From the NCBI GenBank assembly GCA_030272155.1, contig CP126193.1:4402001-4466000 (forward strand): 64,000 bases of DNA, in the 5' to 3' direction. Shown piece after piece: positions 4,510-43,699 of this stretch. The DNA is from Tetradesmus obliquus. Its lineage: Eukaryota > Chlorophyta > Chlorophyceae > Sphaeropleales > Scenedesmaceae. The notes under the pieces are model-generated. The model had not been told where the DNA came from and ran no database searches. It saw nothing but the letters and a program-made list of their open reading frames with translations. Position 1 is the stretch's first letter. Every line of letters begins with the position of its first letter. The translations under genes and the position numbers were made by a program.

Positions 4510-7071
4510 TCAGCGCTGCATCTCCCAGGGGCTCTCCAGGCTGAAGAGCCGGAACTCCTGGCTCAGCTCCAGCGGCTCGCTCACCACGCGCTTCTTGCCG
4601 TAGTCGTAGCGCACCTGGACGCAGCAGCAGGGTAAACAGCAACGGCAGCAGCAAAAGAAAGCAGCAGAAAACAGCGTCGCAGCACAGTGGAGGTGGTCAG
4701 TGCAAGTGCCCCTGCAATACCGCACAACATGGCATGCGCAACCACTGTGTGCGCGTCTTAGTGAGCACGAGGACGCAAGTGACTTTCCTGCAAGCCACCC
4801 AGCTCGCTGCCGCACCGCTGTGTACCCAGTCAGCACGACCTCCTTGCGCAGGGGGTGGGCCTGGAAGCCGACAGCGTGCTGTGCAGCAGCTCGCTCTAGC
4901 CAGACAGCATTGCATGCGCAACCATTCTGTGCGAGCCCTGATAAGCACGAGCCCTAGTCACCACGTAGATAACTTTCCTGCAACAAGCTGTACACAACAA
5001 CCAGCTCGCAGCCGCACCTCTGTGTAGCCAGTCAGCGGGAAGTCCTTGCGCAGCGGGTGGCCCTGGAAGCCGTAGTCAGTCAGGATGCGGCGCAGGTCAG
5101 GGTGGCCGGAGAAGAACACGCCAAACATGTCCCACGTCTCGCGCTCAAACCAGTCGGCAGCGGGGTAGATGGTGGTGATGCTGGGCACGGCAGTCACCTC
5201 GTCCACACACACCTGCAGCCCAAGGGTTGTTTTTTTGCAGCAGCAGTAGTGCAGAAGATGCCAGTTGGATGTTGAATGTAAGGTGCATGCCAAGGGTGAA
5301 GGGAGTGAGGCACGGGTGCAGCGCTGCTGTGCCTTGACAGCACAGTCCACAGCACAGTCCACAACAATCGGGCAGCGCAAGCCCAGCACACAACGCCTGC
5401 TTGTTCGGTGTGTGTACCACTGCTGAAGCATCAGCCTTTGCCTGTGCAGCAGTGCAGCTCCACCACCCTATCCATTCTAGCTGACGCCACCCATGCTGCT
5501 TCTTGTGTCTCAGCTCGGCTGCTACAACAATGACCCTGCAGCGGCCGATATGACTGCAGCAAACAACAAGATATCAAATTCCCACTCCTGCTTCCTCGCT
5601 CGCACCTTGATGCGGATCCGGTTGTTCCAGCGGGGGCTCAGCAGGTGGTACACCACCTCAAAGCGCGCAGCACGCTCCGGGAAGTCGACTGCGGTGATGT
5701 CGATGAGGCACTTGAACTGCGTGTTGATGTGGTCGCGCAGGAACCTGCGGCGATTGTGCGCAAGAGGATGGTTATGCAGGGGGTTCAGCAAGGGGTGGGG
5801 GGAGGGGCGGCGCAGGGAGTGCAGAGGATGAGTTGTGCAGGAAGAGGCACGGAGCTGTGGCGAGGAGTTGCAAACAGGTTATTGCAAAGAAGTGTACAGC
5901 AGGTGTCTGACAAAGCACGACAGCTGTCAAATTGAAGTGTAAGCAGCCGCGGCAAGCAATGCAACGCTCCTGCACAGTCAGGGCACCCTCTGCAGCTGCG
6001 CATGACAGCGCTTCCAGTTGAACGCAGCACAGTACAACTTGCTGGCGCCACTGCGCACCTGATCAGCGGCATCAGGTGCTCCGGTGACGTGTACAGCGTC
6101 TGCTCATTGTATACGTTGGTGGACTGGCCGGGGCCAGCCACCGCAAACTTGATCCAGCTGGGCACCACCTTGATCAGGTAGTCGGACAGCGAGCCCTGCA
6201 GCGCCACCACGTCGTTCCTGCAAGCATGGATGCAACATACGCGAAACAAACAGAAAGCATATAAGCTGGGGACTTAGTACAGCAGGTTTGCTGCATGTCC
6301 AGCATGGCTAGGTGCAGCATAGGGCACCTGGCAGCAGCACGCATGGCGATGCGCACTGCTGCTGCTCCACCAGCTGCGGCCGCTGCCGTGCCACAACTGC
6401 CTGCAGTGGTGCAGCTGCTGTGCCGTCAACAACACACACAGCTCGATCTCTGCCTGCAAGCCTGCAATGCCAGCAGCTGCCGGCAGCAGCTTTGCCAGCA
6501 CAAGCACTGGGTGCACCCCACTGCCGTACTGTAGCTGGCTTGCGAAAGCGCCCAGCCACACAACTGCATATCGCACCTGTTTGCGTACTGCGCCGTCTGC
6601 CTGTCCAGCTTGCGCGCGTAGCGCAGTGACATCTCACGGCGCTGCTCCAAGCCGGCAGCGGGTGTCTCTGCCAAGCTAGTGCTGCTGCTGGCCTGTGCTG
6701 CTGCTGCTGAGACTGCGCCGTTGCTGCGCTCTCCGGGCCTGCACACACCAGCAGGACAGAACATTGCATGCCATTGCAGAGTTGGCAGACATCACAGACA
6801 AGCTGACACAGGTAGTGCAAACTCACAGGCGTTCACCACATGTGTGGCATCAGCAAGTGCTGTGCTGCTGCTGACATTGGTGGAAGTGCTACAGAATCCT
6901 GATGGCTCCAAGGCCACTAGCTGCGGGATCTCACCGGTCTGCCAACGTGCCAAACTCCTGGGCAAGACTGCGGAGGTTGCTCTGCAGTGTGTCTGCTACG
7001 CAGGAGAGTGCTCCATAGTGCTGGGCACCTTGCTGCAGCTTGGCCAGCTGCAGCGCTGCCTGCCGGAGCAT
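4510..7071 (-). CDS. NUO9: NUO9/NAD9, 30-kDa (NDUFS3) subunit of mitochondrial complex I
   Basis: This is the subunit of the matrix (Q-module) arm of NADH:ubiquinone oxidoreductase that helps form the ubiquinone-reducing site. Six exons on the minus strand: 6935-7071, 6577-6738, 6059-6217, 5606-5744, 5018-5212, 4510-4614; phases agree and give 298 residues. The ATG at 7071 opens a region rich in Ala, Gln and Leu of about 95 residues, presumably carrying a mitochondrial targeting sequence. The family domain starts near [16 protein letters not shown]. Hallmarks follow: [35 protein letters not shown], the signature [19 protein letters not shown], then [24 protein letters not shown], and the C-terminal LESPWEMQR. 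Land plants keep nad9 in the mitochondrial genome; a nuclear copy with introns is typical of chlorophycean algae. Intron 5 carries a decayed copy of the end of exon 5 (see repeat at 4733-5074). Confidence 0.96.
4733..5074 (-). repeat. Tandem duplication in NUO9 intron 5 including the exon 5 end and donor
   Basis: Bases 4733-4874 (inside the intron) align with 4913-5074, which ends in true exon 5 sequence from 5018 upwards. The intronic copy of the coding part (about 4813-4874) has many substitutions but keeps a GTGCGGC donor at the equivalent position. Alignment was by eye. Confidence 0.8.
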
Positions 7072-8320
7072 TGTTGAACTGGCTATACAGCGACAAGCAC
7101 GGTTTCCTTAAACACAGTTTACGCACAGAGTGCGAGGCAACACGAGCTCCAGCGGAGTCCCTCACACGCCTGTGTCAAGACACCTGTGCCTTGCTGATCT
7201 ACTTCAGGAAAACACTTCAACAACATCATCGTCCCTGTCGTTGGCCGATCTGGGGAATGGGCTTTACTGCCAGACCCTAGGGTGCGAAGTGACTGAAAGC
7301 CATTGCCCACGGCAGTAGCGTTTCTCGTCCGTTCGTGTGGCTGAAAAGGCATCATTCACGTAAAGAGTGCTCTCTTGCTGCTGCAAGGGTGAATTGCAGA
7401 CGACGATACATGGGATGCAGTTGACTGGTGGAACCGCCCTTGTCATCGCGCACACACACAAGGTCCAGTATAAAATTGGTACAACGTGCAAGCAGGTCAA
7501 TCATTACAGGTCAATCATTGCATGCAACATAATGCTTACTCACATAGCAAGAAGGGGCCCCCCAGGACCAGCATGGCTACTTCAACTTCAATGTTGTGGT
7601 GCTGCTGCTCCTCCTACTTGTTCTAGTATTACCTGCATTCAAAAGAAAACCTGGTCAGTGCCGCCCTCAGTAGCCACGATGGCCTGGGGGGCAACGGCAC
7701 TGACGGTCTTCTGCTCCTTTGTAGTCAGAGGTAGCCCTGGTGCTGCGTTGTCAGTAACGGGTCCAGTGCTGCAAGCAATATGAAACATCAGTAAGTGCGC
7801 GTTACAAGCAAAAAAAGCTACTGCAACATCAGAAGACCTGCTGGAGCTCCTTGTCTGCTGCTCCACGCGTAAAGATGCCTCACATCCTTGGACCTGCTGG
7901 TGAGCTACCTAGCCCTTTCTCATCCTGGAAGCAGTCCAGCTGAGACAACATGACAACTGACCACAGACAACAGCCCAGTAACTCAATCCCTCATACTATG
8001 CAAAACATGTAGACCACGTACTATGCAGACATGGCGACTCCAATGCCGTGCCTGCCCCAGTCGCACACAATATGACGACAGACAACCTGCTGCAGATGAT
8101 TTCATCTGTGGAGTTTGATACCAGACATGTGCACACCCAGGCATCCTGCTCAATCTGTCCTGTTCCATTGTAACAGCGCTCGCTGCTGCATCCTCGTCAG
8201 CAACACTCAAGGTGCACACGTCAGCGCTGAATGTGCGCTGCAACTCACCCCGCTTGCCCCACACACACCTGAACCCCCTGCCCACACCTCACCCCATCCA
8301 CTGCCTCGCCAGCAACACAT
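7072..8320. other. ALB3 3' UTR and NUO9 upstream region, with one possible exon
   Basis: The right part is 3' UTR of ALB3, with TGTAA on the minus strand at 7802-7806. On the minus strand, about 7770 down to 7639, there is a cleaner open frame (ending GGTDQVFF-stop) just after an acceptor-like TTGCAG. It could be an upstream exon of NUO9, using GTTTTC as donor, or a small independent gene. No family was recognised and no start exon found. Nothing else is supported. Confidence 0.35.
7802..7806 (-). terminator. Probable TGTAA polyadenylation signal of ALB3
   Basis: TTACA on the plus strand, about 515 bases past the ALB3 stop at 8321. This fits the usual algal signal and UTR length. Confidence 0.4.
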
Positions 8321-11300
8321 TTACTTTGAGGGCGGCGCATCTGGCACCTTCACGCTCTCAAGTTGGCTGGTGCTGGTCGCAGCAGACTGCCCCTGTGCCT
8401 CTGCCTGTGTGCCGTCAGTCGCCAGCGACGCTGCCTTGACTGCTGCCTCCTTTGACTTGCGCGCACTGAACTTGGAGCCGCGGCCACTCCTCTGCTGCTG
8501 CGGCGCTGCCCCGCTGGCTGCGCTGCTGCTGGGCAGGGCCTCATCGCGAGCCTTCTTGCGAGAGCCTAGCTCCTTGCCAGACACCTGCAGCAGCACACCA
8601 CACAGCCCAAATATCAGCGATCAGCCACAAACGATGATATGTTGCAGAATATGACCCGTGACCATCATGCATGCTTGCGTGTCCCCAGGTATTTGCCAGC
8701 CACAGCTCACACCCGAGACCACCTGTCAGCAGTCACCAGCCAGACATCATCAGCACCTTCCGTCACTGAGGCCAGAAAACATATAGCGGCAGAACTCAAA
8801 AGTGTCACCGCGCGCACCTTCTTTTCCCGGTCCTCCTTGGGCTTAATGACCTCGCCGGTGACATCAATGATAGCGTTGGCGTCACCCGCAGCAGCCAGCG
8901 GCGGCATGTCCACCTTGATGGTCTTCTTCATGTACATCTGCATGGCCGTGCTGATGATGTTGTTCACAAACCAGTACAGCGTGAGGCCGCTGGGCACGTT
9001 GAGAGAGAACCACCCTGCAGGCAGCACCAGACAGGGCAGCACATGAGGCAGAAAGGGTAAGCCAGCATGCAATGGCAATTAGCGTCAACGGGAGCTTGGC
9101 GCAGTTGCCCGCGCATTCACGACACCACTACTTTCACGATGCTGCTGGACGCCCTGTTATCTGCCTGCACCCCGACGAGACGGCATCCGTACAGATAGCC
9201 GCCTGTGAACGCTCTACATGTGAACGCTCTGCATGACACAAACTCCAAGTCTGCACACCATGCTGCAGGCTACTTCCTTTCGTCATCCCGCCGCTCAGCG
9301 CAGCCACCGCCGCAGCTGAAACCAACGACCATGCCAGCGGACTCAAGGCACACGCCCACAACATGTAATAACAACACAACCGTAACAAGCCGCCAGCCTC
9401 ACCGATCATGAATGGGATGAAGCCCAGGATGGCCTGGGTCTGCTGCTGCTGCGGGTCGGTGCTCTGCGGCGACACAATCTTCTGGCTGATGAACTGGCTG
9501 GCCACCAGCAGCACCGGCAGCACCAGGTACGCGCCAGCGTCGTGCCAGCCGATTGGCGGCTGGCCGTCAACGAAGGGGAACAGCCAGGTCAAGCCGGCGC
9601 CCTGCAGGAAACAGCAACACAAAAACAGCACGTTCAGAGATTGTTCAGCAGGGCGCGCGTTGCTGTTTGTTCATGACTAAGCTGAGTGAGCTGCAACAGG
9701 CAAAACCCCAAAGGCAACCACACGCAGGCCTACGACTGCTGACGGACACAAAACACGCATGCATGTGAATAGCTAATGTACGCACCGCTTTCTGCGCCGC
9801 CATGCTGGAGGGCCCGCCCAGGCTGGGGATCCAGAAGAAGCCGCTGGTCAGCAGGCCCTCATCGGCAGCCTTGGTCAGCGCCCTGCATGGGTTACATGTG
9901 AAAGTGTTTAGCACAGCACCAGGCTCACATATGACTTGTAAGCAATGACTCCATAAGAAGAGGTACGGCTGCAAGTAGGACAGCTCATGCTGCGGATTCC
10001 ACTGCAGGATGCATGCAGGTGATCAACGGCCAAGCCGCACTACTGCTGGAAGAATGCCTATGCAGCAGCCGCCGCAGCAGCAGGCGCACCTGTAGAGCCC
10101 GATGAACACGGGGATGGTGGCCAGCGTGGGCAGGCAGCCCGCCAGCGGGTTGATGCCGGCCGTCTTGTACATGCGCGCAGTCTCCAGCTGCAGCGTCTCG
10201 GGGTCGTTGGCGTACTTGGCCTGCAGCTCCTTCACACGGGGCGCCACAGCCTGCATGGCCAGCGTGGACTCCATCTGCAGCAGCAGTAGGGGCAGCCAGA
10301 AGAACGCGGCAGCAGGCAGCTGAGCGCAGGTGCACAGGGACGAAAAGTTCAATAGCATGTTCAAAGGGCTGTGTGGATGGGACGCTCGCGACAGAAAGCA
10401 GCCAGTACCGTTTGCTGTACGGCGGTCGCACTAATGAGTACTGTTTAACTAATTATTGTCAACGTGTGCACAGCACGCGCTGCGCTGCGCTGCACTGCGA
10501 GTGTGCCCCACTGCGCCGCTCACCGACTTCTTGCTGAGTGGGTATGTGGCTGCCTTGACCAGCAGTGTGAGCAGGATGATGGCAAAGCCATAGCTGTACG
10601 GCACGCCGGCAGCGCTCAGGCCGCCCTCCAGCACCTGCACCGTGCAGTTCAACAGCCACCGCAACAGCCATGGTCATTGTACGGAGGCTGAAGTTGCTCG
10701 TCCAGCACAACATATAAATAAGCCCCCACAACAGCCACAGTCATAGTACGGAGGCTGAAGTTTGCTCGTCCAGCACATCTATATGTTGAGGCGGCCGCCA
10801 GATGATCGTAGTGAGGCGCGCCATGCAGTGCGTGCCAGGTGGTGCAGACTGGCCTCTTGCATCCCTCTGCTGCAATAGGTGCTGGTCATCTGATGCAGTT
10901 GTAGCGCTGTTAGGCGAGTGTGAACTGCTTTGTGGTAGCAAAAGCACATCTAGTATCCCCTAGATTGGTGATCAGGTGGCTGGCGATGTCCGCCATGCAT
11001 GGCCCATCGCATGCAGAGCTATCTCTGCTGCTGAAAACACATACAAGCTTTGCAAGCTTATCTACACAGACTGCATGATGCTGCTGCCCGGCACCCTGAC
11101 TACAAGTGCTGTTGCCTGCTGAGGATTTGCCGCTGCTGCTGCTGCTGCTGCTGCTGTGCTGCAGGTCGCACCTTGAGGAACGCCTCAAAGCCATCTGCTA
11201 GGAAACCGAAAGCTCCGCCGCTTGAGCTGCTGGCTGCATCTGTAACGCTGTCATCTGACAGCACGTACAGAGCCTGAGTGACAGCTGCCGCGCTGTAGGG

Positions 11301-11801
11301 TGCATGAAAAGGGGGCAGCCAGCCAGGGAAAAACAGCAGGTGGATCAGGCTGCAGGAAGCCTTACACACCATACGGGAAAGCACGCGTGCGCATGCATGC
11401 AAGGGTGCACTGCAGATGTGCAGGCAAACATGCGGTTGACACAAAGTACTGATTCCATGCACATCATCTCAAGGCTGGTAGCAGCATCTGGCGACATCTG
11501 CCACTGCTGCTGGCTGCTACAGCCTGAGGCTGCTGCACTTGCTGATGGCCTGCCACGTGCCCAGCTCGCCTACCTTGATGCCTTGATGGCAAAATCTGTC
11601 AGTTGCTCGCTTCCAGGCAGCATGGCCCGGGTCACAACAGCTGGCCTGCGTCCCCAGGTCCGCACTACACCTGCACCACAGAGCACACACTACTGCATGA
11701 GTGCCCCAAACCACCAACTCAATGCCGCAAGCAACCTATGTGTATGACTTTGCTTACCGAGCTTTGTGCTGCATTGCCGCAGCGCAGGCAGGCCTGCGCA
11801 T
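8321..11801 (-). CDS. ALB3: ALB3, thylakoid YidC/Oxa1-family membrane insertase
   Basis: ALB3 inserts light-harvesting and other proteins into the thylakoid, receiving them from the chloroplast SRP pathway. Nine exons: 11758-11801, 11574-11645, 11172-11292, 10524-10634, 10090-10274, 9786-9882, 9403-9601, 8818-9014, 8321-8584; phases agree and the sum is 430 codons. After a short transit region and ALYVLSDDSVTD comes the insertase core: VPYSYGFAIILLTLLVKAA, ATYPLSKKSMESTLAMQ, INPLAGCLPTLATIPVFIG, SGFFWIPSLGGPSSMAAQ, LTWLFPFVDGQPPIGWHDAG, YLVLPVLLVASQFISQKIV and VPSGLTLYWFVNNIISTAMQ. These match the five membrane segments of the family. The last exon gives a long basic, Ser/Ala/Lys-rich stromal tail as used for cpSRP43 binding. 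The start is the least certain part: exon 1 is only 44 bases and was chosen because its phase alone fits exon 2. Intron 3 has a small tandem repeat (10671-10785). Confidence 0.95.
10671..10785. repeat. Two-copy direct repeat in ALB3 intron 3
   Basis: About 45 bases containing TACGGAGGCTGAAGT and GCTCGTCCAGCACA occur at about 10671-10712 and again at about 10740-10783 with few differences. The copies lie wholly within the intron. Confidence 0.75.
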
Positions 11802-12160
11802 GCCCTGGTGCACCTGTGTAGCACAGAGTTCCTCGCAGTGAGCGCCAAGTGCCACGACCACTCTGCATTGGCGCGTTGTAGCATCAACGTAGCTTTTACC
11901 TTCCCAACTGAGCAGTTGCCATGCTGATTGTGGCTAATCAAGCTGGTGATGTGGCACAGGTGGTGGGCGAGCAAGTGCCCAGCAATGCTACAACTGCTAA
12001 CCTGCTTGAAAAGAAAGTCTGCTGCAGTGACGAGCTGTCTTGTCACCGGCGGTTTCAGCAAGGTGTCATGTCAGGCCAACGTGTTAGGTCAGCACTCAAA
12101 AGTGCTGATCTCTTCTGTCCCCAAGGCTTTCCTGCCGGTGTTCAACAGCATCGCAAAAAC
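11802..12160. promoter_or_regulatory. 359-bp divergent promoter interval, ALB3 (-) / TFIIB-like (+)
   Basis: The two genes are head to head, so both 5' UTRs and promoters must fit here. The region is open in the frame of the TFIIB-like gene back to 11921, so that gene could start earlier. I see no clear TATA element. Confidence 0.5.
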
Positions 12161-14018: not shown

Positions 14019-14237
14019 CAGGCGGTGGTGCTGGAGGTTCTGTTGTGGTGTTTTGTTTGCTGTGGCGGCAGCGCGGCAGTGCTGGAGGTTCTGTTGTGGT
14101 GAGTAAATTCCATGTCTTCAACTGCACTGGGATTTGTGCAGCAGATGCTGCAACATTGCATCTGATGCGGTGTATCACAGCATGTTTCTTTACGTTTGCT
14201 TGAAATGTCACAATCAGCAGGCGCGTTGGATAGCCAG

Positions 14238-14322
14238 CTGTGAGTCTTCAGCCTGATGCCGGGCCCGCACCACAATGAGTGGCTGCAATGCACCGAGCTG
14301 TCATCAGGCTGAAGACTCACAG
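14238..14322. repeat. Perfect 21-bp inverted repeat (hairpin) with 43-nt loop
   Basis: 14238-14258 (CTGTGAGTCTTCAGCCTGAT plus G) is the exact reverse complement of 14302-14322. One more pair extends the stem outward, and after a mismatch two further pairs form. It lies about 220 bases past the TFIIB-like stop and before a TGTAA at 14883, so it may sit in that gene's 3' UTR. The size resembles a small-RNA precursor. Confidence 0.85.
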
Positions 14323-14882
14323 CAGGGGCCATGGCAAGCTTGCCAGGCAATGCCTTCGACTGGGCCAGACTTCTTCGTGTGCACGTCGCCTGGGGCTCAA
14401 CAGTGCTGGGGATGAAGGCCAGCTTGGTTATTCCCCTAAACCCTTTTGATGAAATCCAGCTTGGTTATTCAGGGTTTGAGTGTGCTGTTTTGGCTTTTAT
14501 TTCGCTCCCAACATCTTTTGCACGTCTCCTTCTTGTGGCTGTGGGACACTGTGATCGCACGTGCGCTCAAGCTGCATGGTGGCGTTGCGCTTTGTTCTAG
14601 CCAAGTGTCAGCCAAGCACGGCAGCCCGTCAGGGATGTTGCATACCTTGTCATGTACTGCGATCTAAGTGGTTACATGTCTTTATGCGTGAACTCGGTGG
14701 CTGCTGACGGGCAAAGATGGGCTGGCAATCTCGCGCAGCAAGTGGTGAACGATGGTCCAGCGGGTCCAAGGTCTGCTGCACGTAATCACGCACATGCTAC
14801 TAATATAAAGTTTACATATGAGTCGGATGCTTACAATAAAGCACAACGCCTTCGCTGCTGACCAAGCGCGCTTGTGTTATGA

Positions 14883-14887
14883 TGTAA
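14883..14887 (+). terminator. Possible TGTAA polyadenylation signal of the TFIIB-like gene
   Basis: TGTAA about 865 bases downstream of the stop at 14018; no earlier plus-strand TGTAA was noticed after the stop. Confidence 0.3.
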
Positions 14888-23933: not shown

Positions 23934-24233
23934 GGGTTTTCATACACATTGCCTTGGGGGGGAAAGGATGTGCGTTGCACCAAATCTTCACTCGACGTCA
24001 ACAATATTGCTGAAACCATTGGATCAGCGTGGTGACCAGGCAGTACTAACATGACATCGCATGCTGTACAAGTGTCGCCAAAAGCGCCGCTCAGCGGGTG
24101 CCGGATTGTTCGTTCAACTCATCGACGAAAGCAAAGAGTCACACAGTATTTGGTGTAAGTTTTTTGGAACGGCGGTGGATGACAGCTGCAAAGTCAACCA
24201 AAAGACAGCAATCTGCAGCTCAAGGTTGGCAGC
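23934..24233. promoter_or_regulatory. 300-bp divergent promoter interval, ABCI12 (-) / LRRC46-like (+)
   Basis: The start codons of the two genes face away from each other across exactly this interval, so both promoters must lie in it or in the 5' exons. No known motif was recognised. Confidence 0.5.
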
Positions 24234-30022: not shown

Positions 30023-33000
30023 TCATCGCTGCGCAGCAGCTGACTGCGGCTGCTTGGCTGCGTCGCCTGTGCCTGCGCTGCCGTTGCTGCTGGGTGTGTT
30101 GGGCCGAGTAGCTTCCCCGTCAGACACAGCCAGCGGATCGCCATCAATCGTGGTCAGCGGCGGCGCGGACGGCGACGCTGCATCAATGTACACGATCAGA
30201 TCGCCTGCATCCAGGTTATCCGCCTTCACGACCGCCACCTGCGTCACCACGCCTGCAATAGGCGCGCACACAGCTGTCTCCATCTTCATGGCAGACAGCA
30301 CTGCCAGCTGCTGCCCTGCGTGCACTGGCTGCCCTGCCTTGACTGACACCTCAATAACAGACCCTGCCATGGGTGCTCCCACGCTGCCCAGCACTCCCAC
30401 ATCTGCCTTCTCGCGGATGGCCTTCTTGCCGAGTGCCTCAAGGCTGCGCTTGTCAACCACTTCGACAACACGCGGCACGCCGTTGGCCTCAAAGTAGACC
30501 TCCCGCTTGCCGCTGTCCTGCAGCTCGCCCGCTGCCTTGAGCTTGATGTGCGTGCTCACACCCTGCGCAGGCAGGCGGCAGGTGCGGCGCAGCAGATGCA
30601 CAGGTGGGTTGGCAGCAGGGGACGCCATGCATACAGCAAGCAGCAGCAGAAGACCAGGCCGTGGGCTGCAGAGCCCCCCCCCCCCCCCCCCGTTCATTCA
30701 TCCAGGTCTGATAACAAGCGCCTGGGTTGCTGCTGCACGTACACGCTTCTGTGCACTTCAGCTTTGCCATTTGCTGGTAAAAGGGGACTGACAGTGACGT
30801 TCACTGCGTGCTGCTGAGTGTGCCCTTGCCGCACCTTGCTGAGCTCAATCTCAACCTCCTCATCCTCCCGCAGGGGCACCAGGAAAGCCCTTGTGGGCAG
30901 CTTCTCAATCAGGTCACTGTAGCGCAGCACGTGCGCCTGGTACTCCTCAAAGACCTTGGGGTACAGCGCAGCGCTCAGCACGTCGCGCGGGCTGACGTTG
31001 GCCTTGCCGTAGCGCTCCACCAGGCGCGCCTCCAGGTTGTCCAGCTCCATGGGGGGCATGCTGGCGCCCGGCCGGCCCTCAATGGTGGGCTTGCCCTGTA
31101 AGTAAGGAAAATGGGAGATGGCAGCAGACGGGATGGAGTTACAGTCATTGGAAGACAAGCATATAGTGATCCAGCTCCCCCCTGGGGAGCATGCTGCGTC
31201 TGGCCGGCCCTTGACAGTGGGCTTGCCCTGTAAATGAGGTAGGTTTGTGAGGCAGGCAGTGAAAATAATAGCAGTTGAGAGATCAGAAGCACCTCATTCA
31301 CTGTGCGCAAGCTTGCGACGCCTGGGATAGACTGCTGGCAGCACAGCCGTTCCGCCTCCAGCCAAGATAGATCTTGTTTCCTTTTCCTGCAAGCATGTCC
31401 TGCAAGCGTTTCCTGCAAGCGGCGCGCCGCACCTTGAGGATCTTGCTGCGCAGCGGCTCCGGGAAGCCGAAGCTGGGCTGCCCGATGTATCCCTGCATGA
31501 ACTCCACCACGCTGCCGGGGAAGGACAGCGTGTCTGCCTTCTCAACAAGACTGTGCTCGTCCAGGTCGTTCTGCACCATGAACTGCGCGAGGTCGCCCAC
31601 CACCTTGCTGCTGGGCGTGACCTGCAGGAGGCACAGCAGGGATGCAGCAGGGAAGCAGCAAAGCAGCAGAATGTCATCAAACGCACAAGACAGCAAGTTA
31701 CACCTTGCAGCACAGGCACAGCTATGATTCAGCACAACTCCAGGATGGCCTTTGGCAGTGTTTCTCAGCTGCCATGCATCCCATGCCAAGCATGTGACCT
31801 ATGAATAGCTGATAGCGCTGTCCTGCAAGCTGCATGCACCTGCTGCTGCAAACACTCCTTTCGTCCTTGCTGCCGTTGCATGCTGGGGCTGCATGCTGGT
31901 GCTGCGTGCTCCCGCGCACCTTGACGATATCGCCCAGCGCCCTGTTGGCTGCCGCGTAGCTCTGCTGCACCTTGCCCCAGCTGTCACCCAGGCCCAGGCT
32001 AGCTGCCTGGAACTTGAGGTTGGTGTACTGGCCGCCAGGCATCTCGTGCTGGTACACGTCGCTGCTGCAGTAGCGCATGTTGGACTCAAAGGGCGCATAC
32101 AGGTCACGCGTGGACTCCCTGCAGGACGACAGTTGGCAGGCAGCAGCACAAGGGATGCATTGTGATATCGGCGCTGCAGCTGCATCTACCTGGCGATATT
32201 AACACAGCACAGCACCAACCAAGATGACTTGCAGAGTCTGTTGCAGACGTTATAAAGCAGCAAAAGCATGCAGCAAGCTCGCAGCAAGCTGCGCAGCGCA
32301 GCGACGCACCAGTAGTTGCTCAGCAGCAGCATGTGGCGTGGTTTGATGCCGGTGTCCAGCTTGGTGCCTGCCAGCGAATTCACGATGGCTCCCATGCTGG
32401 GCTGGCTGGTGAGGCCGCTCATGCTGTCAATGGCACAGTCCACGATGTCTGCGCCAGCCTCAGCAGCAGCGATCTGCGTTGCCACGGCAGTGCCTGCAAG
32501 GCAGCAGAGCACACAGCATGCGACGGTCAGCCGCAGTTGTTGGTATCCATTGCTTGCTCCGCAATGTTTCGTCCTGACCGCAACACATCACAACATCGTC
32601 ACCCCAGCCGCACGGCGTCATTGCTCCCTTGCCAGCCCGCCTGCCGCACCTGCGCTGTCGTGAGTGTGCACGTGGATCACGAGGTCGGGGTAGCGCGCGC
32701 GCAGCGCCCCCACCAGCTCTGTGGCTGCCTTGGGCTTCAGCAGGCCTGCCATGTCCTTGATGCCCAGGGAGTGGATGCCGTGGTCCACCATCTGCTCCGC
32801 AAGGTCCATGTAGTAGTCCAGCGTGTACTGCAGCAATACAACAAAGCAGTGCGGCAGCATGATGCAGGATATTGTGATTTCGCGTAAGGGCTCCATGTAG
32901 TAGTCCAGCGTGTACTGCCTAAGATAAGAAACAACAGCAGTGCAGCAGCATGATAACGGGATGTGTAAGGCAGGGTAGGAGCGAAGGCATCAACAAGCAC

Positions 33001-35140
33001 TCTAGCCACCAGCCAGCTGGATGTCCAGCGCGTGGAGCCGGTGTGTAGCAAAAAGCACACGGCAGCAGACCAGGCACTGGCGAGATGATAGACCTGCTCC
33101 TGCTGTTGAATGCTCAGGTGTTTTCAGTCCATCACGCCGCTGTGCAGCGTGGGGTTTGCCGACTCACCCGTGTCCTGCTGGGGTCTGACAGGTCGCCTGT
33201 GTAGCAGATGGTGCCCTCTGCAATGCCCCCGGCTGCTGCCACAGAGTCGATTCCAAACTTGAGGTTGTCGATGTAGTTGAGGGAGTCAAACACGCGGAAG
33301 ATGTCAATACCAGACACGCGCGCCTGGCGGCAGAAGTCATCGACCACATTGTCAGGGTAGCTGGTGTACCCCACAGCGTTGGCGCCGCGCAGCAGCATCT
33401 GCGGCAGCAGCAGCAGCAGCAAGAGGGTTAGGCAGGGTTGGGCTGGTGTCAGCAGAAGGGTGAGAAGAAGCAGCAGGAGGTGTGGAGAGGAAAGCAACCT
33501 TCCGGCATGCGGGTGCTGCCAGCACTCCTGCGCCTACTGCTCTCGCTGGAGTCGCAACTGCTGCACACTTCTTCAGGCTGCATCTGCTGCTTCTGCAGCT
33601 TGTGCATGCGGTTGTTTGAACCAACACATCTCAACACCCAGCTGCTGCTGCCTGGCCACCCACCTGGAAGGGGATGTTGGGGATCTGCTCCCTCAGCTGC
33701 TCTAGGCGCCGCCAGGGGCACTCATGCAGGAAGCGCAGCGCCACATCAAAGGTGGCACCACCCCACATCTCAAGGCTGCCTGCGCCAGCCAGGATGTGTG
33801 CTGTGGCTGGCGCTGCCTTGAGCATGTCGTGCGTGCGCATGCGCGTGGCCAGCAGCGACTGGTGCGCATCACGCCTGTTGTTGTATGTTGTTGGTGGCGG
33901 GGGCAGCAGCAGCGGGTGCACACGGCAGTCAGTCAGCATATGCGTGGCAGCGGCAAACGGCGTGGCTATTGTGGAAGGCGCAGCAACACTGGGATGGCAT
34001 GCGGCGCCGTGCCGGCCAGGGCCCTCGCACACAGCCACTGCCACACCCCGCACCACCCAAACTAGCAGCATCTGCTCCTCGCAAGGCTTGCGGTGCACCT
34101 CAGCATATGCCAGCCTGCTTCAAGCCTAACACTCTGCTCATCGCATGCTGTTCCTCTGCGCTCACATGGTGGTGTCTGTCAGCAGCAGCCCCTGGTGCGC
34201 GCGCACCGCCTTGGCCCAGCCCTCAGGCCCCTCCCTCAGGTACACCTCGCGCCAGCCGTGCAGCGGCTGCCCAGCCAGGTCAGCAGGCAGGCTTGGGGGC
34301 GGCGGCGCATACTTGCTGGGTGGGGCGCCGATTGCGCCGGGGTGGTCGGGGCCGTTCACCACCTGCAGCACGACGCACCAAGTAGTCCGTGTTACAATCT
34401 GTTGTTATTGTATAAGGGCGTAAGCTGGCGACGCTGATGTGCAGCTGCTATGCGGTGCTGGTGTGCTGCTTTTGGACTGGCGCTTCTCTGTGGTAAGCAG
34501 GCCGCGCCATATTGCTCCCCTCTGCGCCTGTTGCCAGCAACGCAGCTGCCGCTTTGTTTCCTGCAAGAGGAGAGTTTCTTATCTTATTTATCCGGCCCCT
34601 CTTTCTGCTACCAATGCAGTATGTTTTGGCTGTCGCAGGCCTGCCAGCTCACCATGTCTGCCAGGTACAGCAGCAGCTTGTTGGCGCGGATGTTGGAGTG
34701 GCCCTCAAACTTGAACAGCTCCTTGGAGTGCGTCTCAATGAAGCCAGTGGTGGCAGCGCCAGCCAGGAACACCGGGTGGCGCAGCACATTCTCCATGAAG
34801 GGGATGTTGGTCTTGATGCCGCGGATCTGTTGACAGCACAGATGGCAGCAAGCAGCACACATCACCACATTAGGGAAGGGACCACAGCATAGGGCACCCG
34901 CACGCTTTCTTAACCGCTGCAGTGATTGGTGTAGCAACCGGCGCCGAGCATGCACAGCCAAACAGCAGGCGCACAGTTGCTTGCACCAGGTGCAGACTTA
35001 AGCCTCACGTGCTGTGGCCTCTTTTACAGGTAACAAGCACTGCACACACATAGGCAACACTATGCCGAGTCAACGCAGCTCTTCAAAACCCAAATGCTGT
35101 GCGTCTGCTGCAGCAACCCTCTCAATCACAGCCAAAGCAC

Positions 35141-35186
<46 letters not shown>

Positions 35187-38100
35187 CCCACCTGGAACTC
35201 CTGCAGCGCGCGTGCCATGCGCTGCACCGCCTTGTCAAAGGTGGGCGCGGTGGAGATGACCTTGGACAGCAGCGAGTCATAGTAGCGGCTGATGACGTTG
35301 CCAGCTGTCACCGCGCTGTCCAGGCGGATACCTGGGCCGCCGGGCGGGCGGTACGCCTCCAGGCGGCCGCTGTCCGGCTGCAGCAGCAGCACACGCCGGC
35401 CATGGCACAAGTCAGCACACCAGGACATATAAGGTGCACGCAGTGCACTACCAAGACCCGAAATTTGTCACATGTTGTATGCACATGTAGGCACAGCAAA
35501 AATGCCCCTTCTTGCAGCTGCAACTGGTCACTTGGTCAAACATGGTCAAACTCAACATGATGATAGACGTAACGTACCTGGAAGTTCTGCTCGGGGTCCT
35601 CGCTGGTCACGCGGCACTGGATGGCGTAGCCCTTGGGGGCAGGCACTGCCGCCTGGCTGGGCAGGCCCAGCTCAGCCAGCGAGGCGCCACCAGCAATCTT
35701 GATCTGCGTCTGCACGATGTCGATGCCTGTGATCTCCTCCGTGACGGTGTGCTCCACCTGCAGCGCAGAGAAACACAGGTTTAATGATAAAGTTCACATC
35801 AAGAGCAGTGGCAGCTTGGACGCGAGAAGTGCAGCCATGTTGTGCGCGAGACACAGGAGGCGTCCACACTAGCAAGTGATCCGCTGCGATAAAGTAACAC
35901 GTGTGATACACGCAGCAAACACACTGATCACGGGACAGGTGAGAGCAGCACATGTCCAGAGTTGACTGTTGCAAGGCGCCGTCCTGCTGTGGAACAGAGC
36001 AGCCAGAAGGGCCGCGCATATGACAGCAGGCTGCGCTGCGCATTCGGCGCATGTCGCTGCTGCTTCTGCCCTGCCGAACGTTTGCAGATGTCTGCTGCTG
36101 CTGCCGCTGCTGTGCCGTCGCACCTGCACGCGCGGGTTGACCTCCAGGAAGTAGTGCTTGCCGTGCTTGTCCACCATGAACTCAACAGTGCCTGCAGCAG
36201 CAGCAGCAGCAGGAGCAGCACACAACACAACCAGCAAGACACACAGCAGCAGTCAGCACCACTCAAAACAGTAGCCCATCCAAGAGCCCCAGGCCGACTT
36301 GCCGCTGCATGCCTCTGCACCATCCCCCAGCGTCCATTGCTGCCGCAAGTGCTGGTGCAAGTTCAGCTGCGCCGCTGCTCTGTCCAGCTGCGTCTTTGTA
36401 CTGCAAGTGCCTAGCCTGCTGCTGTGTGCTGGTGCGCAGTGTGCTGCCGCCTGGCTGCTGACCTGCGTTCCTGTAGCCCACGTGCTTGGCCAGCTTCACT
36501 GCATCAGCATACAGCGCATCTTTGATGCCCTGGGCCAGGGAAGGCGCCGGCGCAATCTCCACCACCTGGGTTGAAGCAGAATGCAGGGGAGGCACACGCA
36601 AGCAGAGCATGGTCAGTGGCAGTGAGCAGCAACGCAGGCGGGACCCAGCGCTCAGGCGTCTACTGCATAGCGCACATGCGCACAAACGTGCAACAAACAT
36701 GGGATATGATGCCTTAGGGCAGCGCTGGCCCGTGCTGCCCTGCCACTGCTGTGTGTGTCCATGTGCAGGTGCAGCGCAAAGTTCGCTGCCCCGCCTTGCG
36801 TACGCTGCTGCCCCTGACGCTGTCTGCTGCTGCCGCTGCGCTGCTCTCCCCTCTACACATTCTGCTGCTGCTGCTTGCTGTTCACACCTTCTGGTGGTGG
36901 CGCTGCACGCTGCAGTCGCCCTCATGTCGGTTCACCACTACTACTACTACTGTTACTGCGCCCTGCTGCCCTCCACCCTTGAATGTATGCACATGCAAAA
37001 TTGGAGAGCACCGGCCGGCGCTGCAGAATCAGCAGCCTGGCAAGCTGGCGCCCCTGGTGCTGCACACCGCTGCCGCTGCACTGCTCTTGCCACTACGCAG
37101 TTGCAGCTGTCTCCTGGCTGCTGCCGCCGTGCCGCACCTTCTGGTGGCGGCGCTGCACGCTGCAGTCGCGCTCGTAGAGGTGCACCACGTTGCCGTATGA
37201 GTCAGCGATGATCTGGATCTCGATGTGGCGCGGCTCCTCCACATACTTCTCCACAAACATGCTGCCATCGCCAAAGGCGGCCTTGGCCTCGTTGCTGGCG
37301 CGGTTGAACAGGTCAACCATCTCAAAGTCTGCACACAGAGGGGCGCAAAGGTCAAAAAAGAGATATGAGCATATCGTATGATGACAGGCACAGTGTTTGG
37401 CACGTCCAGGCTGCTGAACAGGCCCACCATCTCATAGTCTGCACGCGCAGGCCCGCAAAAACAGACAGACATGTAAGCATAGAACTAGCGATGTGAGCAT
37501 AGCAGTAGATGACAGGCACTCTTAAGCTGCACCCCCTCATTCAATTGCTGCAGCCACCCGCATGCCCTGCTACTACGCTTCATCTACATGCTGTCACCTG
37601 TCATACTTGCTGCACTCTGCCGCCTGCCGTTGCTGCTGCTCACCGTTGCGCACCACCCGCATGCCCCTGCCTCCACCACCCATGGAGGCCTTGAGGATGA
37701 CAGGGTACCCAGCCTCCTCAGCAAAAGCCAGCGCCTCCTCTGCTGACTCAAGCGCCTGGTTGGTGCCCGGCACAATCGGCACGCCGCATGCAGTGGCTGC
37801 GCGCCTGGCAGCAGTCTTATCACCCATGGCCTGTGCGGACACACATACAGCAGCAGCAGCAGCAGCAGCAGCAGCACACGCTGAGTGGCTGTGGCAATTA
37901 TGCTATGGCACGTGGGCTTTGCGCCAGCTGCTACTGCGGCCGTGCGACTGCTGCTTGCCTTTGCCAAAAGCTGCGGCGGCAGCATCCGCTGGCTGTGGCA
38001 GCTGCCGTGCGTGCTGCGTGTCACTGGCGCCAGCACTCCAGCCTGCTCAAGCCTGCAACACTTGCTGCCGCCTGGTTGGAGGGCAGCTGAGGGCCCCCGG

Positions 38101-39140
38101 CAGCTTCGATGGAACATGCAGTAGGTGTACCTTGCAATCCGCATCTCCACAAAGCTGTCAGAAAACGCCACATTCTTGGTGCAAGCAAAGTGCCGGGGAT
38201 ACAGACGGCAGGCGTGCAAGGAAAAAGCTGCAGGCACTGCTGCTGCTGCTGCTGCTGCACACCTCGATGGTCTCCGCCTTGGGCCCGATGAACACAATGC
38301 CCTCCTCCTCGCAGCGCCGTGCAAAGGTGGTGTTCTCAGACAGGAAGCCGTACCCCGGGTGGATTGCATCCACCTCAGCCTCCTTTGCCACCTTGATGAT
38401 CGCCTCAATGTCGAGGTAGCAAGAGACCGGCTGCATGTCTGAGTTGCCCACTTGGTACGACTCGTCTGCATTGTACCTGTGGGACTGCAGGCGGTCTGCG
38501 GGGCTGTACACGGCCACCTGCAAGGGGATAGCAGCAGCAGTCGTTCAGCCACGTCGCGGTCAGCCACGTCAGCCCTGCTGCTGCCACTGCTGCTGCTGCT
38601 GCTGGTGGCTAGCTGAGAGAGCCCGAGTGTGGCTGCTGGACTGCCACTTATAGGTTCAGGGAACGCAAATGTGGACGCCTAGACGCATAATCTGCATCCA
38701 CTGTGAAGAGGGTTTCTGATGCTCACCGTGCGCAGGCCCAGCTCAGTGCCTGCCCTGAACACGCGGATGGCTATCTCTCCGCGGTTGGCGCACAGGATCT
38801 TTTGAAAGGGTACCTCACCCGTGTGGAACGTCTGCAGGAAGAACTGAATTAGAGTGCCTGAACACTTCCACCGTTTTGAGCGTTGGTGCCGTGCACGCAC
38901 CTCCAGGCCATCGTTGTGCGACACATGCGCTGAGACATCTAGGATTGGAGTTTTAACTGTGCTCGACACTGAAGGGCCTGGCACTGAGAGCCCTGGCTGG
39001 TGCTGTGGGCTGTTCGCAATACTGTGCCTGCGGCGCACTCCAGCGGACACATGGCGTGCTGGCACTGGCTTTACTGCTGTCTGCTGAGCCTGTCGCAGCC
39101 CAGACAGTCGAGAGGTGTGGCGTGCAGTCGGCAGCTGCAT
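30023..39140 (-). CDS. PYC: Pyruvate carboxylase (biotin-dependent)
   Basis: PYC makes oxaloacetate from pyruvate, bicarbonate and ATP, refilling the TCA cycle. Nineteen exons (5' to 3'): 38901-39140, 38727-38831, 38263-38517, 37644-37830, 37138-37328, 36463-36565, 36124-36191, 35578-35757, 35192-35377, 34653-34826, 34166-34362, 33664-33874, 33168-33398, 32650-32827, 32310-32493, 31920-32118, 31433-31621, 30835-31095, 30023-30562. Every phase fits; the product has 1292 residues. An 80-residue basic, Ser/Arg-rich leader suggests organelle import. Biotin carboxylase follows ([35 protein letters not shown], the Gly-rich ATP loop [31 protein letters not shown]). The carboxyltransferase has [28 protein letters not shown] with the usual carbamylated Lys, and metal ligands in HVHTHDSAG. 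The C-terminal biotin site is SAMKMET. Two oddities: DTTM where the family has DTTF, and an extra low-complexity tail of about 50 residues after the biotin domain. Several introns hold decayed exon-edge copies. Confidence 0.98.
30674..30691. repeat. Run of 18 C in the last intron of PYC
   Basis: An uninterrupted C18 (G18 on the transcribed sense strand) lies between PYC exons 30835-31095 and 30023-30562. Homopolymers this long are error-prone in sequencing, so the exact length is uncertain. Confidence 0.85.
31041..31240 (-). repeat. PYC intronic copy of an exon 5' edge with acceptor
   Basis: 31171-31240 in the intron resembles 31041-31107, which covers the start of exon 30835-31095 plus its acceptor. 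The copy keeps an acceptor of the form TTTACAG before GGCAAGCCCAC, while its coding part has diverged and includes small length changes. Confidence 0.8.
32800..33040 (-). repeat. PYC tandem copies of an exon 5' edge with acceptor
   Basis: The block 32800-32885, which holds the start of exon 32650-32827 and its acceptor, is repeated at 32886-32975, with the exon-derived words CCATGTAGTAGTCCAGCGTG kept exactly. A third, shorter trace is at about 33013-33040. The second copy still ends in an AG acceptor. Confidence 0.85.
35144..35185. repeat. (CAG)14 run beside a PYC donor site
   Basis: About fourteen CAG units on the plus strand, that is CTG on the transcribed strand, begin six bases after the donor of PYC exon 35192-35377. 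Confidence 0.9.
36802..37192 (-). repeat. PYC intronic copy of an exon 3' edge with donor
   Basis: 36802-36940 in the intron resembles 37042-37192, which covers the end of exon 37138-37328 and the intron start. The copied coding part (CGCTGCACGCTGCAGTCGC on the plus strand) is nearly identical, and the GT donor after it is intact. Confidence 0.8.
37302..37520 (-). repeat. PYC intronic copy of an exon 5' edge with acceptor
   Basis: A unit at about 37305-37397, with the start of exon 37138-37328 and its acceptor, is repeated at about 37417-37520. The copy still reads, in the same phase, Y-E-M-V-G-L-F where the true exon reads F-E-M-V-D-L-F, after an intact GCAG acceptor. Confidence 0.8.
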
Positions 39141-40264
39141 CCTGGGCAGATTAGTGGGGCATGCCCGAGTTAGGTACCCCCGCCCACAACCAGGTTGGCA
39201 GGTATATCAGGTAGGAAGTGCTCGAGGGTGCAGTGGGACGATCCTAGCCTGGTGACCCGCCGAAGTACCATGTTAGCCATGTGCAAGGGCTTTGGATGGG
39301 AAAGCCGCAGCGCTTCTTCCGCCCATTGGTGCTGGTTTCGCTTTTATTTAGCTACAAGATCGCATTTATGGGACTCGGGAAGACTTCGCTGCCGCAGCGA
39401 CGGGTGACAACTGACTCCTGCTGGCAGCAACCTCCAGCACGATACACAACCACAGCAGGCTCGTTCGCATCGTCCTCCATGTATGGTGGTCTCTGTTCAA
39501 TACCAGTCTTGGGGTTTGCAAGTTTCAAAGACGCTGAAGAACTGCAGCATTGGCCTAGGAATGTTCTCAGCCCTGACAGAAGCCTGCAGTCAGGAGCTGC
39601 AATGATCAGCAAACATCCTCGTGTGGTGGTGCAGATTAGCGCACACAGTGTACCACCAAAGAGGTGTAGAATGCTGAATTCTGACCGACTGCAGCATACG
39701 TGATGAACTTTGACAGCCAGCAGCGGGCTGTGGGACTCAGCAAACTTTGGGCGGCCCAAGCAGCAGCCACCAAGCAGCAATGCCTGATATCAAAAGGGGT
39801 TCGGCCCGCATCAACTGCTGCCTCATGCCTCCTTATCAGCGCATTGCCAGCCCCAATTGCCACCTGACCGCTGCCACATGCAGCTGCTGCACACCACACT
39901 ATGCACCTGCCTTGTCTATGAACCCATCACTGATGTGGCACATCCCAGCAACACAGCCTGCTGCTGATGCAGGCTGTCAGAGTCTGGTGCCAAACCATGA
40001 CAAAGCCATGTTCCACCCCACAACACACCACGCGCATACAGAACAGGCGAACCCATCTGCATGAGGATGGCTGTGTCGCCAGCAGCTGCTGCTATGCAGA
40101 CACCAGCAGTTATCCACCTGCGCTCGCTACTTGACGCAACCAAACCCTACACATGCAGCTCCCTCACATGTGCAGCCTTTGACCAGCACTCTCCCTCCTC
40201 TTGCAACCAGCACGCACCATCACTCCCAGGACCCTCCCACCACTACATGACATGATAGCACCAC
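39141..40264. other. Upstream of PYC and downstream of IGPS
   Basis: PYC and IGPS are on the same strand, so this 1.1-kb stretch should hold the PYC promoter and 5' UTR and the IGPS 3' UTR. No other exon, repeat or RNA gene was recognised. Confidence 0.5.
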
Positions 40265-40488
40265 TCACGCAAGCGACAGCAGCTTCTTCACGCCTGCCGT
40301 GGGGTCGCCCTGCTTCACCAGTGCCTCACCCACCAGGATGGCCCCCACCCCCGCAGCCTGGCAGAAGGCCACGTCATCAGGGGTGAAGATGCCTGACTCG
40401 CCCACCATGAGGATGCCGCGCCGCTGCACCTCCTGGCCTGCCGGGCTCTCCATGATGCGCTGAGTCAGCGCCAGGTCAACCTGACGCA

Positions 40489-40521
<33 letters not shown>

Positions 40522-40859
40522 GCAGCAGCGGGAGGAGGTTGTCACGTAAAGCGCGATAAGCTTGCCCGCACCTAAAGGTGCCCAGGTCCTATGGTTGATT
40601 TCCAGCAGGTCCTCTTGAAGGCTGCCACACCAGCACAGGACTAGCACAGCACCAGCACAGCACTATCATCAACAATGCTTTTGAACGCATCGCAAGGAAT
40701 CCACCTTAAATGTGCCCAGGTCCCTGTTGTTGATGCCCAGCAGGTGGTGCTCCAGCCCCTCCAGCTGCAGCACACGCGCCAGCTCAGCCTCAGTGTGCAC
40801 CTCAATCAGGCAGCACATGCCCAGCGCCTTGCACGCCTTCATAAAGTATGCCAGGTCCT

Positions 40860-40891
<32 letters not shown>

Positions 40892-43699
40892 GGCAGCAGC
40901 AGCAGCGGCAGCACCAGCGACTCAACAAGCAGGTTTGGCTATGGCCCATGCCGTGATGAGTTGCTGCTTGCATGTGTGCAAGCGTAGCAGTGGCCAGTGC
41001 GGTCATCCCTGCTGCGCCATCTTGTTCAAGTAGCCTTGTGCCCAACAGCTGACTGGTCTAGACAAGCCAGATAGCAACCGGGCCATATGCAGTACAAGCA
41101 GCAGCCAGCGCTGCGCCCGGCTGCTGCGCAAGGCAGGTTCAGCGACACTGGGCTGCACTGCACCACCTGCGTTCAGGCGCGATGCTGGCAACAGCTGAAC
41201 ATCGCATGCCTGCAGCTGCTGACCCCACCACCACACGCCCCACACTCCCCGCCCACACACCTGGTTTGGCAGCACAGCAGCCGGACCCTCTCAACCCACA
41301 GCACCGCCTGCCGCAAGGATGACAGATTATGTTCGCCTCAATCCCCACCCACGCACCTGGTTTGGCAGCACTGCCGCAATCAGCAGCACCGCGTCCGCGC
41401 CGCTCACGCGCGCCTTGAATATCTGGTACGCCTCCACAATGAACTCCTTGCACAGCAGCGGGCAGCTGACCCCAGCCGCCTTGATCTTCGCCAGGTTGTC
41501 GAAACTGCCCTGGAAGAACTTCTCATCAGTGAGCACGGAGAGGCAGGCTGCACCGCCTGCCTCGTAGGCTGCTGCGATGCGCACTGGGTCAAAGTTGGGC
41601 TGGATGACACCCTTGCTGGGGGAGGCCTTCTTGACCTCCGCGATGAGCCCCGGCTTGCCTGCAGGCAGGGAGCGGCGTGAAGAATGTTACTAGAGTCAAC
41701 ACTGAAGTGTGCGTCCTGGCACCATCTGATTTGGTGTGTGCAAAGCATGTAGGCAAGCTCAGCTGCAGGAGTGGCTAGACAGATGTCTGCAACTGCAATT
41801 GGGTATTGAAAGGCATGGGCGGCACAGCAGACTGCTGCACAGCTGCAGGCATCCAGTACTACTGCAGAGGGCTGATAGCCCAGCGGTAGGCTGCCAGACT
41901 GAAGCGTCTGCCAGCAGCAGCAGCTGTAATGACGCCACAGCAACGTCTAACTGGCCGCACCTGTCTCCTTTGCCTTTGCTAGGATGGCTGCCTTGAAGTC
42001 CCTGGCAGGCGGTGCCTGGCGGGCCAGCGCCTGCAGGGCAAAGCACAGGAGCGCAGCGCAAGCATCAGCCGCAGCACACCAGCACATCACGCACACCAAG
42101 CATGCTCGCTGGTGACACAACGGTGCAAGCCTACAATATTGCATAGCGCAGCTGCACCGGCAAGCGCACTCTCAATCCACCGGCTGCATGCTGTGTTCTG
42201 CACAGCTTTGATTTCCTATGTGCTGTTTGTCAAGCGGCCTGAACCAGCACTGCAGCACCACTGAGACACTGCTGCGCTGGCTGCACTTTGCCAAAAGCAC
42301 TGTATAGCCGCCCCATCCTGGAGCCTGCTGCTGCATGTGCCTGCAAGCTGCCTCTGCAGCCAGGCTGGCCCACCTGCGGCATGGGCAGCGGCTGTGCTGC
42401 TGCCCATTGTGCTGCCGCAAACCAACCCAACGCGCCTGCTGCACACACCAGACATCAGACTGGCTGCGCCACCTGCAGCATGGGCAGAGGCTGTGCTGCC
42501 GCCCATTGTGCTGCCCCAACCCAACCCAATGCTGCAGCTGCAGCCTGCTGCACACACCAGACACCAGCCTGGCTGCCCCACCTGCAGCTGTGGCAGCGGC
42601 TGTGCTGCTGCCCACTGCTGTCCCCCACAATCACACCGGTGGTTGCAGCTGCAGCCTTCTGCATTCGCCAATCATCTCAGCCTGTCACTTGTCGCACCGC
42701 GTACCTACAGCATGGCCAGCTGCTGCTTCTCCCTGAAAGACTCGATCTCTGCACTGCTGCTCCACACTATTGCATATGCCTGCAAGCTTCACCTCTGCAG
42801 CCTATCTCTGCAGCCTAGCCCCACCTGCAGCATGGGCAGCGGCTGCTTCTCCCGGAAGGACTCGATCTCCTTAGCCTTGTACCACACGATCTCCTCCAGG
42901 ATGTTGATTGGCTGGTTGATGTCTGGCAGGTTGCCCACCTTGTAGCCCATGGCAGGGCCACACCTGCAGCAGCAGCACAGCAGGTGTGTTCAGCAGCCAG
43001 CAGCATGCAGCTTGCAGATGCGACGATGACTCAACTGGTGTGGCAGCTGCGTCATGGGCATGTAGCCGCAGCCAGTAGGTGGCCAGCAGCATGCAGCATG
43101 TTGACTAGCTAGACTTGGCAGCTGCATCATGGCCACAGGGTCAGCAGCCTGCTGACATTTCCACATTTGCTTGCTCAAAGGCAGACGCTTTCTGCTGCAC
43201 GCTGCTGCAGTTCAGGCAAAAGGTGCTGCTGTGCCGAGCCGTTCCTGCTGAGAGCCCAACTGCACGATGGCGCCTGTAGCAAGCAGCTGTTGGCCGTGCA
43301 TGGCAGCACAAAGCTATGCAGCGTGCTGTGCATGTCGCCAGCTGCTGCTGCTGGTGCTGGTGCTGGTGCTGCTGCAGCTGCTGCTCTACAGGGAGCACCA
43401 GCTGCTTACGGCTGTGTGTCCTTGCCAAGGGGCGGCCTCCTGCGGATAGACACCTCTCCAGACGCCTGCACACCAATGTATCAATTGGCCACATCAGGCA
43501 CACTGAATCTCTCAAGTGCTGCTGCTGCAGCAGCACCTGCTGATGCAACACTTCAATCCTGGCCCAAACCCATTACCTCTGCTGCCTCCACGGTTGCTCG
43601 CACTGTCACCGTTTGCCGGGAAACGGGCCTTGCTGCAGACTGTGCACGCTTGCACCGGGTGACTGGCAGCTGGCACCCCAGCTGGCTTGAGAGCTGCAT
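40265..43699 (-). CDS. Indole-3-glycerol-phosphate synthase (tryptophan pathway, plastid)
   Basis: IGPS closes the indole ring in tryptophan synthesis, turning carboxyphenylamino-deoxyribulose phosphate into indole-3-glycerol phosphate. Seven exons: 43577-43699, 43410-43465, 42825-42963, 41961-42030, 41357-41658, 40705-40857, 40265-40480; phases agree and give 352 residues. A 41-residue transit region (ATG 43699; an in-frame ATG at 43738 is possible) is followed by the plant-type N-terminal segment with [10 protein letters not shown] and then [20 protein letters not shown]. The TIM barrel shows the catalytic motifs [15 protein letters not shown] and [15 protein letters not shown]. Phosphate and substrate loops are [13 protein letters not shown] and [16 protein letters not shown], then [13 protein letters not shown]. 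No fusion to PRAI or anthranilate synthase is present. Three introns carry copies of the preceding exon end. Confidence 0.97.
40487..40530. repeat. Interrupted (CAG)n run beside the IGPS last-exon acceptor
   Basis: A CAG-rich run, CTG on the sense strand, starts about six bases upstream of the acceptor of exon 40265-40480 and forms part of its tract. Confidence 0.8.
40568..40750 (-). repeat. IGPS intronic copy of exon 6 end with donor
   Basis: 40568-40615 resembles 40699-40750, the end of exon 40705-40857 with its donor. The copy keeps GTGCG after the coding-derived part, and phrases such as GTGCCCAGGTCC and CCAGCAGGT are shared. Confidence 0.8.
40860..40916. repeat. (CAG)n run beside the IGPS exon 6 acceptor
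   Basis: About eleven CAG units, then mixed CAG/CGG, start at the acceptor of exon 40705-40857. On the sense strand this is (CTG)n running directly into CTGCAG. Confidence 0.85.
41250..41400 (-). repeat. IGPS intronic copy of exon 5 end with donor
   Basis: 41250-41320 resembles 41343-41400, the end of exon 41357-41658. ACCTGGTTTGGCAGCAC is identical in both, so the copy keeps CAG then GT as a donor. Confidence 0.85.
42367..42873 (-). repeat. IGPS intron 3: four tandem decayed copies of the exon 3 end with donor
   Basis: The true exon end and donor (about 42818-42873) is echoed at about 42369, 42469, 42577 and 42705, in units near 100-120 bases. Three copies keep CACCTGCRGC (donor on the minus strand). 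The copy at 42705 keeps the longest coding part (CTGCTTCTCCCTGAAAGACT versus CTGCTTCTCCCGGAAGGACT). Confidence 0.85.

Follow-up and report, generated by a model that had tools for sequence, protein, structure and literature searches.

Partly decayed copies of exon edges in introns of three Tetradesmus obliquus genes, probably left by tandem duplication across splice junctions

Genes of the window and the exon-edge copies in their introns

The DNA analysed here is a single window of 64 kb from the intron-rich nuclear genome of Tetradesmus obliquus (contig CP126193.1), in which eight genes with introns were modelled. The gene models were built with a small splice-aware predictor; those of NUO9, PYC and IGPS were then corrected by hand, and the remaining five intron-bearing genes (CP12, ALB3, KIN, CBIQ and NSUN) are represented by ab initio models only. 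Most tests use a set of 49 introns, from which two uncertain 5′ introns of IGPS were left out, and the intron-length test uses 51. The NUO9 protein matches the 30 kDa subunit of complex I, IGPS matches indole-3-glycerol phosphate synthase and PYC matches pyruvate carboxylase, and all three models are backed by homologues in the PDB. Among the matches listed for these three proteins, alignments cover all eight junctions discussed below, and the NUO9 intron copy, when read as exon, corresponds to a 15-residue gap in both homologues.

All three genes carry, inside their introns, copies ('ghosts') of the neighbouring exon edge, and all copies described here lie on the minus strand. Intron 5 of NUO9 (4615–5017), defined by protein homology and the corrected model, bears one donor ghost: positions 4724–4870 repeat the end of the exon and the start of the intron, with a ghost donor at 4815 and the real donor after 5018. 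PYC has four such edges. Its donor edge at 37138 is copied at 36804–36938 (ghost donor at 36887) in intron 5 (36566–37137), an intron likewise defined by protein homology and the corrected model. Its three acceptor edges are copied in intron 4 (37329–37643; edge 37328, ghost at 37415–37519, recovered by BLAST and by the gene-blind scan described below), in intron 13 (32828–33167; edge 32827, ghost at 32892–32954) and in intron 17 (31096–31432; edge 31095, ghost at 31170–31239). A weak candidate copy of the donor edge of PYC intron 4 lies at 37545–37570 and lacks a GT at the corresponding position; it scores 16.5, and shuffled sequences give 1.6 matches at a score of at least 16 and 0.6 at a score of at least 17. 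In IGPS, three donor edges are copied: 40705 in intron 6 (40481–40704; ghost at 40569–40610, ghost donor at 40571), 41357 in intron 5 (40858–41356; ghost at 41240–41281, ghost donor at 41260) and 42825 in intron 3 (42031–42824), where an array of four ghosts occupies 42341–42749, with donor copies near 42704, 42581, 42472 and 42373.

The anatomy of the copies follows a common plan. At each of the eight loci a single edge, donor or acceptor, is duplicated, donor ghosts lying downstream of the real donor and acceptor ghosts upstream of the real acceptor, at offsets of about 87–250 bp. The exon part of the copies measures 21–55 nt when edges are drawn strictly and up to 83 nt when they are relaxed, and is joined to attached intron sequence; past the strict exonic edge there is little or no similarity, and p<0.05 is reached at IGPS intron 5 only.

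The copies were detected without reference to the genes by comparing the whole window with itself for direct repeats at offsets of 12–700, with simple repeats masked, 60 dinucleotide shuffles as the control and a score of at least 19 as the threshold for a row; a scan with more lenient scoring was discarded because shuffles scored high too. At this threshold the real window gives 22 rows, compared with a mean of 0.03 per shuffle, and 13 of the 22 sit at eight exon edges with a copy in the adjacent intron. BLAST recovers the same eight loci and is the source of one IGPS pair (42703–42869) that is absent from the rows of the gene-blind scan. The preliminary description of this DNA, which had reported exon-edge copies in the introns of these genes, is thus confirmed for one edge in NUO9 (a donor), four in PYC (one donor and three acceptors) and three in IGPS (all donors, one of them with four copies).

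Nine rows lie away from exon edges: an intron-only duplication in ALB3, two with units of 30–32 bp at 54.3 and 55.2 kb, one directly past a stop codon at 14.0 kb, a PYC intron row whose unit is 13 bp, an NSUN intron pair rich in CTG, and three rows of low complexity that lie within or close to coding sequence. The ALB3 case (10654–10784) is a 67 bp tandem duplication that lies some 20 nt away from the acceptor, which it does not include; the one at 14019–14101 is a 50 bp tandem duplication beginning right after the stop codon; and at 55189–55318 an imperfect self-complementary stretch (55213–55318) overlaps a 30 bp direct duplication.

A test centred on the junctions themselves reaches p<0.01 at 11 of 98 junctions, eight of which are the strong edges described above. 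The other three are a match in KIN that stops short of the junction, a CTG-rich and ambiguous match in NSUN, and one PYC donor; five further matches outside the p<0.01 set were dropped as low-complexity or away from the junction. In the same test none of 70 control windows in exon interiors reaches p<0.01, and 17 of 175 intron-interior windows do so, a count that includes pieces of the same duplications. Similarity arising by chance or from low complexity, in a genome rich in GC and CAG, fits some of the weak matches (NSUN, KIN and the acceptor of IGPS intron 6), but as a general account it is highly improbable, being already contradicted at the eight strong loci by the excess of rows over shuffles, the empty exon-interior control and the tandem registration seen at six of them.

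The copies are unevenly distributed over the genes, with eight of 27 introns affected in NUO9, PYC and IGPS versus none of 22 in the other five (Fisher P=0.006); among the genes with less certain models, one of 60 junctions reaches p<0.01. All eight loci fall in three of the eight modelled genes, and a genome-wide habit is therefore not to be claimed from this window.

Tandem structure and the length of the carrier introns

Tandem duplication predicts that the flank of a copy should resemble the sequence one unit further on. This resemblance is found at six of the eight loci, the exceptions being PYC intron 17 and IGPS intron 5; adjacent direct copies at a constant offset, the hallmark of tandem duplication, are present within these genes. 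The carrier introns are also long, with a median of 371.5 nt compared with 249 nt in the other 43 (P=0.002), and they exceed the other 21 introns of NUO9, PYC and IGPS as well (P=0.007). Once the extra units are subtracted, carriers average 253 nt, compared with 261 nt for the remaining introns. The flank comparison and the greater length of the carriers both bear out the earlier proposal that these introns grew through local tandem duplication across a splice site. The copies appear to lengthen existing introns: all of them sit within introns, and there is no sign that any intron is new. Within the 64-kb window each copy resembles its own exon edge. Introner elements consist of one element repeated at scattered positions in many genes. 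A search for relatives with one degenerate pattern from NUO9 gave 0 matches in the viral_contigs and genome_contigs collections.

The ghosts are thus probably partly decayed tandem duplications whose unit happened to include one splice junction, and no special mechanism seems to be involved beyond ordinary DNA duplication that splicing tolerates. A tandem duplication that spans one junction would leave the gene with two donors or two acceptors. As long as the outer site were still used, the mRNA would be unchanged, and the inner copy would join the longer intron and drift. Protein homology suggests that the outer site is indeed the one in use.

Fate of the duplicated splice sites

The sequence of the copies points to drift. 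Identity amounts to 319 of 391 positions in the exon parts, where one of the two copies is constrained, versus 264 of 364 in the intron parts, where both drift. In the five copies that were compared in frame, a hand count gives 15 codon differences that change an amino acid or create a stop versus seven that are silent, and indels are present in the copies of PYC intron 17 and IGPS intron 6. Judged by these differences, the copies behave as neutral sequence with no sign of coding constraint, and they are presumably close to neutral in effect. Neither of the marks of a functional alternative exon or site, namely coding constraint or a site that outlasts its neighbours, was found in the copies.

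Use of the ghost is predicted to give an early stop or a frameshift at six of the eight junctions; in PYC introns 13 and 17, use of the ghost acceptor would instead produce an open, in-frame insert. Such stops and frameshifts would let quality control hide leaky use of the ghosts at most loci. This resembles the nonsense-mediated decay (NMD) shelter model outlined in PMC2809761, in which mis-spliced products with premature stops may escape selection. That model was proposed for new introns in Drosophila, and any role of NMD at the loci described here is hypothetical.

The preliminary description had further stated that every copy examined keeps its GT or AG and had suggested, as a possibility, that selection or some mechanistic bias preserves the usability of the duplicated site. 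The first statement holds for all 11 strong copies and fails at the weak donor candidate in PYC intron 4; the suggestion itself is not borne out. With one copy counted per junction, the GT/AG positions are retained at 16 of 16, compared with 74 of 80 for the ten exon bases next to them. The real GT/AG is held by selection, and therefore only changes in the copy are visible; since the real dinucleotide cannot change, the fair yardstick is exon sequence, where it is mainly the copy that drifts. The chance of retaining 16 of 16 is 0.29 at the rate of the neighbouring exon bases, 0.04–0.06 if the identity of the whole exon part is used, and 0.006 if that of the intron part is used. The splice-site score of the nearest ghost is below that of the real site at six of the eight junctions. 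IGPS intron 6 shows the opposite of most loci, its real donor (GTGGAT) scoring under the ghost (GTGCGG).

If the copied site were kept functional, perhaps as an alternative or a decoy through which expression is tuned, its intact dinucleotides in the strong copies would be expected, the two lower retention chances would be explained, and the large share of ghosts among strong decoy donors (see below) would have a reason. We nevertheless regard this as unlikely, as the adjacent exon bases are kept too, the wider consensus is poorer in the nearest copy at most junctions, one weak candidate lacks its GT and the copies are free of coding constraint. Because the adjacent exon bases are retained as well, special preservation of GT/AG is not shown; with numbers this small it keeps a low probability.

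Taking as strong any cryptic donor whose score is no lower than the 5th percentile of the real donors, the 49 introns contain 15, seven of them ghosts. The total of 15 is not clearly lower than in shuffled sequence (19.1, SD 3.9). Strong cryptic donors other than ghosts number eight on the sense strand of the 49 introns of the eight genes and 17 on the antisense strand. In short introns the splice site nearer its partner is described as preferred, a proximity preference that is reversed under exon definition (PMC9225289). Short introns would thus favour the inner site, here the ghost, and the survival of strong ghosts is therefore not obvious. These loci are well suited to tests of how splicing chooses between duplicated sites.

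Placement of the duplications and relation to intron gain

Eight of the nine large non-repetitive duplications span a junction. This count leaves out four repetitive rows (16052, 17350, 4362 and NSUN 46018) and four rows with units of 13–50 bp; counting the four repetitive rows among the non-junction cases brings the tally to eight of 13. When the observed unit sizes are placed at random in the eight modelled genes, only protein-preserving placements being allowed to pass and detection being equal throughout, 4.4 of nine are expected to span a junction (P=0.014 for at least eight). However, a junction-spanning copy remains recognisable for a longer time, since the partner of its exon half is under constraint, and in a neutral simulation in which detection is modelled 66% are expected to span a junction, so that eight of nine gives P=0.13.

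These figures bear on the idea that a mutational process targets splice junctions, with duplications starting there more often than elsewhere in genes. The equal-detection comparison speaks for it, as do the short exonic overhangs, which place one breakpoint close to the junction; the loss of significance when the model lets exon-bearing copies stay visible for longer, and the lower tally with the repetitive rows, speak against it. We consider such targeting improbable, and under these models a junction preference beyond geometry and detection is not shown.

In a post hoc comparison with uniform breakpoints under the same detection model, the exon pieces fall short of the lengths expected at random, both with strict edges (mean percentile 0.17, KS P=0.0001) and with relaxed edges (mean percentile 0.27, KS P=0.03, one-sided P=0.012). 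With relaxed edges the overhang at IGPS intron 6 is 83 nt, and that at IGPS intron 5 is taken as 45 nt (21 by the base table). A splicing sieve is one explanation for this post hoc pattern, and small numbers are another. It is conceivable, if rather doubtful, that tandem duplication across junctions is the main way in which introns of this alga grow, with competition between splice sites acting as the sieve; only duplications with a short exon part would then persist, as the inner site would prevail if more of the exon were copied. Were this so, the ghosts would be a natural record of duplicated splice sites that the spliceosome ignores.

Returning to tandem duplication tolerated by splicing, the mutation type is a known one, here falling on an existing junction and lengthening its intron. 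Tandem duplication is well described as a source of new introns (PMC3443670, PMC2891723, PMC2809761, PMC4974935). In the intron gain outlined in PMC3443670 and PMC2891723, as in the present case, an intragenic tandem duplication supplies the splice sites and the protein is unchanged if the extra sequence is spliced out; there, however, the duplicated element is an exonic AGGT and the outcome a new intron, whereas here an existing junction is spanned and an existing intron grows. The intron gain reported for the potato RdRp gene (PMC4974935) is similar in that an intron–exon structure is tandemly duplicated and the splicing signals are inherited from the parent, and differs in that it yields a new intron and an altered exon structure, whereas the exon structure is unchanged here; the same paper also mentions, as a separate event, a duplication of 83 bp inside an intron. 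A search by title and abstract opening, in a collection that covers a minority of subscription journals, found no description of intron growth by junction-spanning duplication. If common, the process would offer a simple neutral route to longer introns with the protein unaltered, and would load introns with near-intact decoy sites, a natural experiment on splice-site choice. The copies can also be dated roughly, since coding constraint acts on one of the two sides.

At the end of the window, the minus strand of 54040–64000 holds related genes, the first of which matches glycosyltransferase family 61; exon ends of a similar kind reappear around 59.4 and 61.4 kb, which suggests a tandem gene array in this region.
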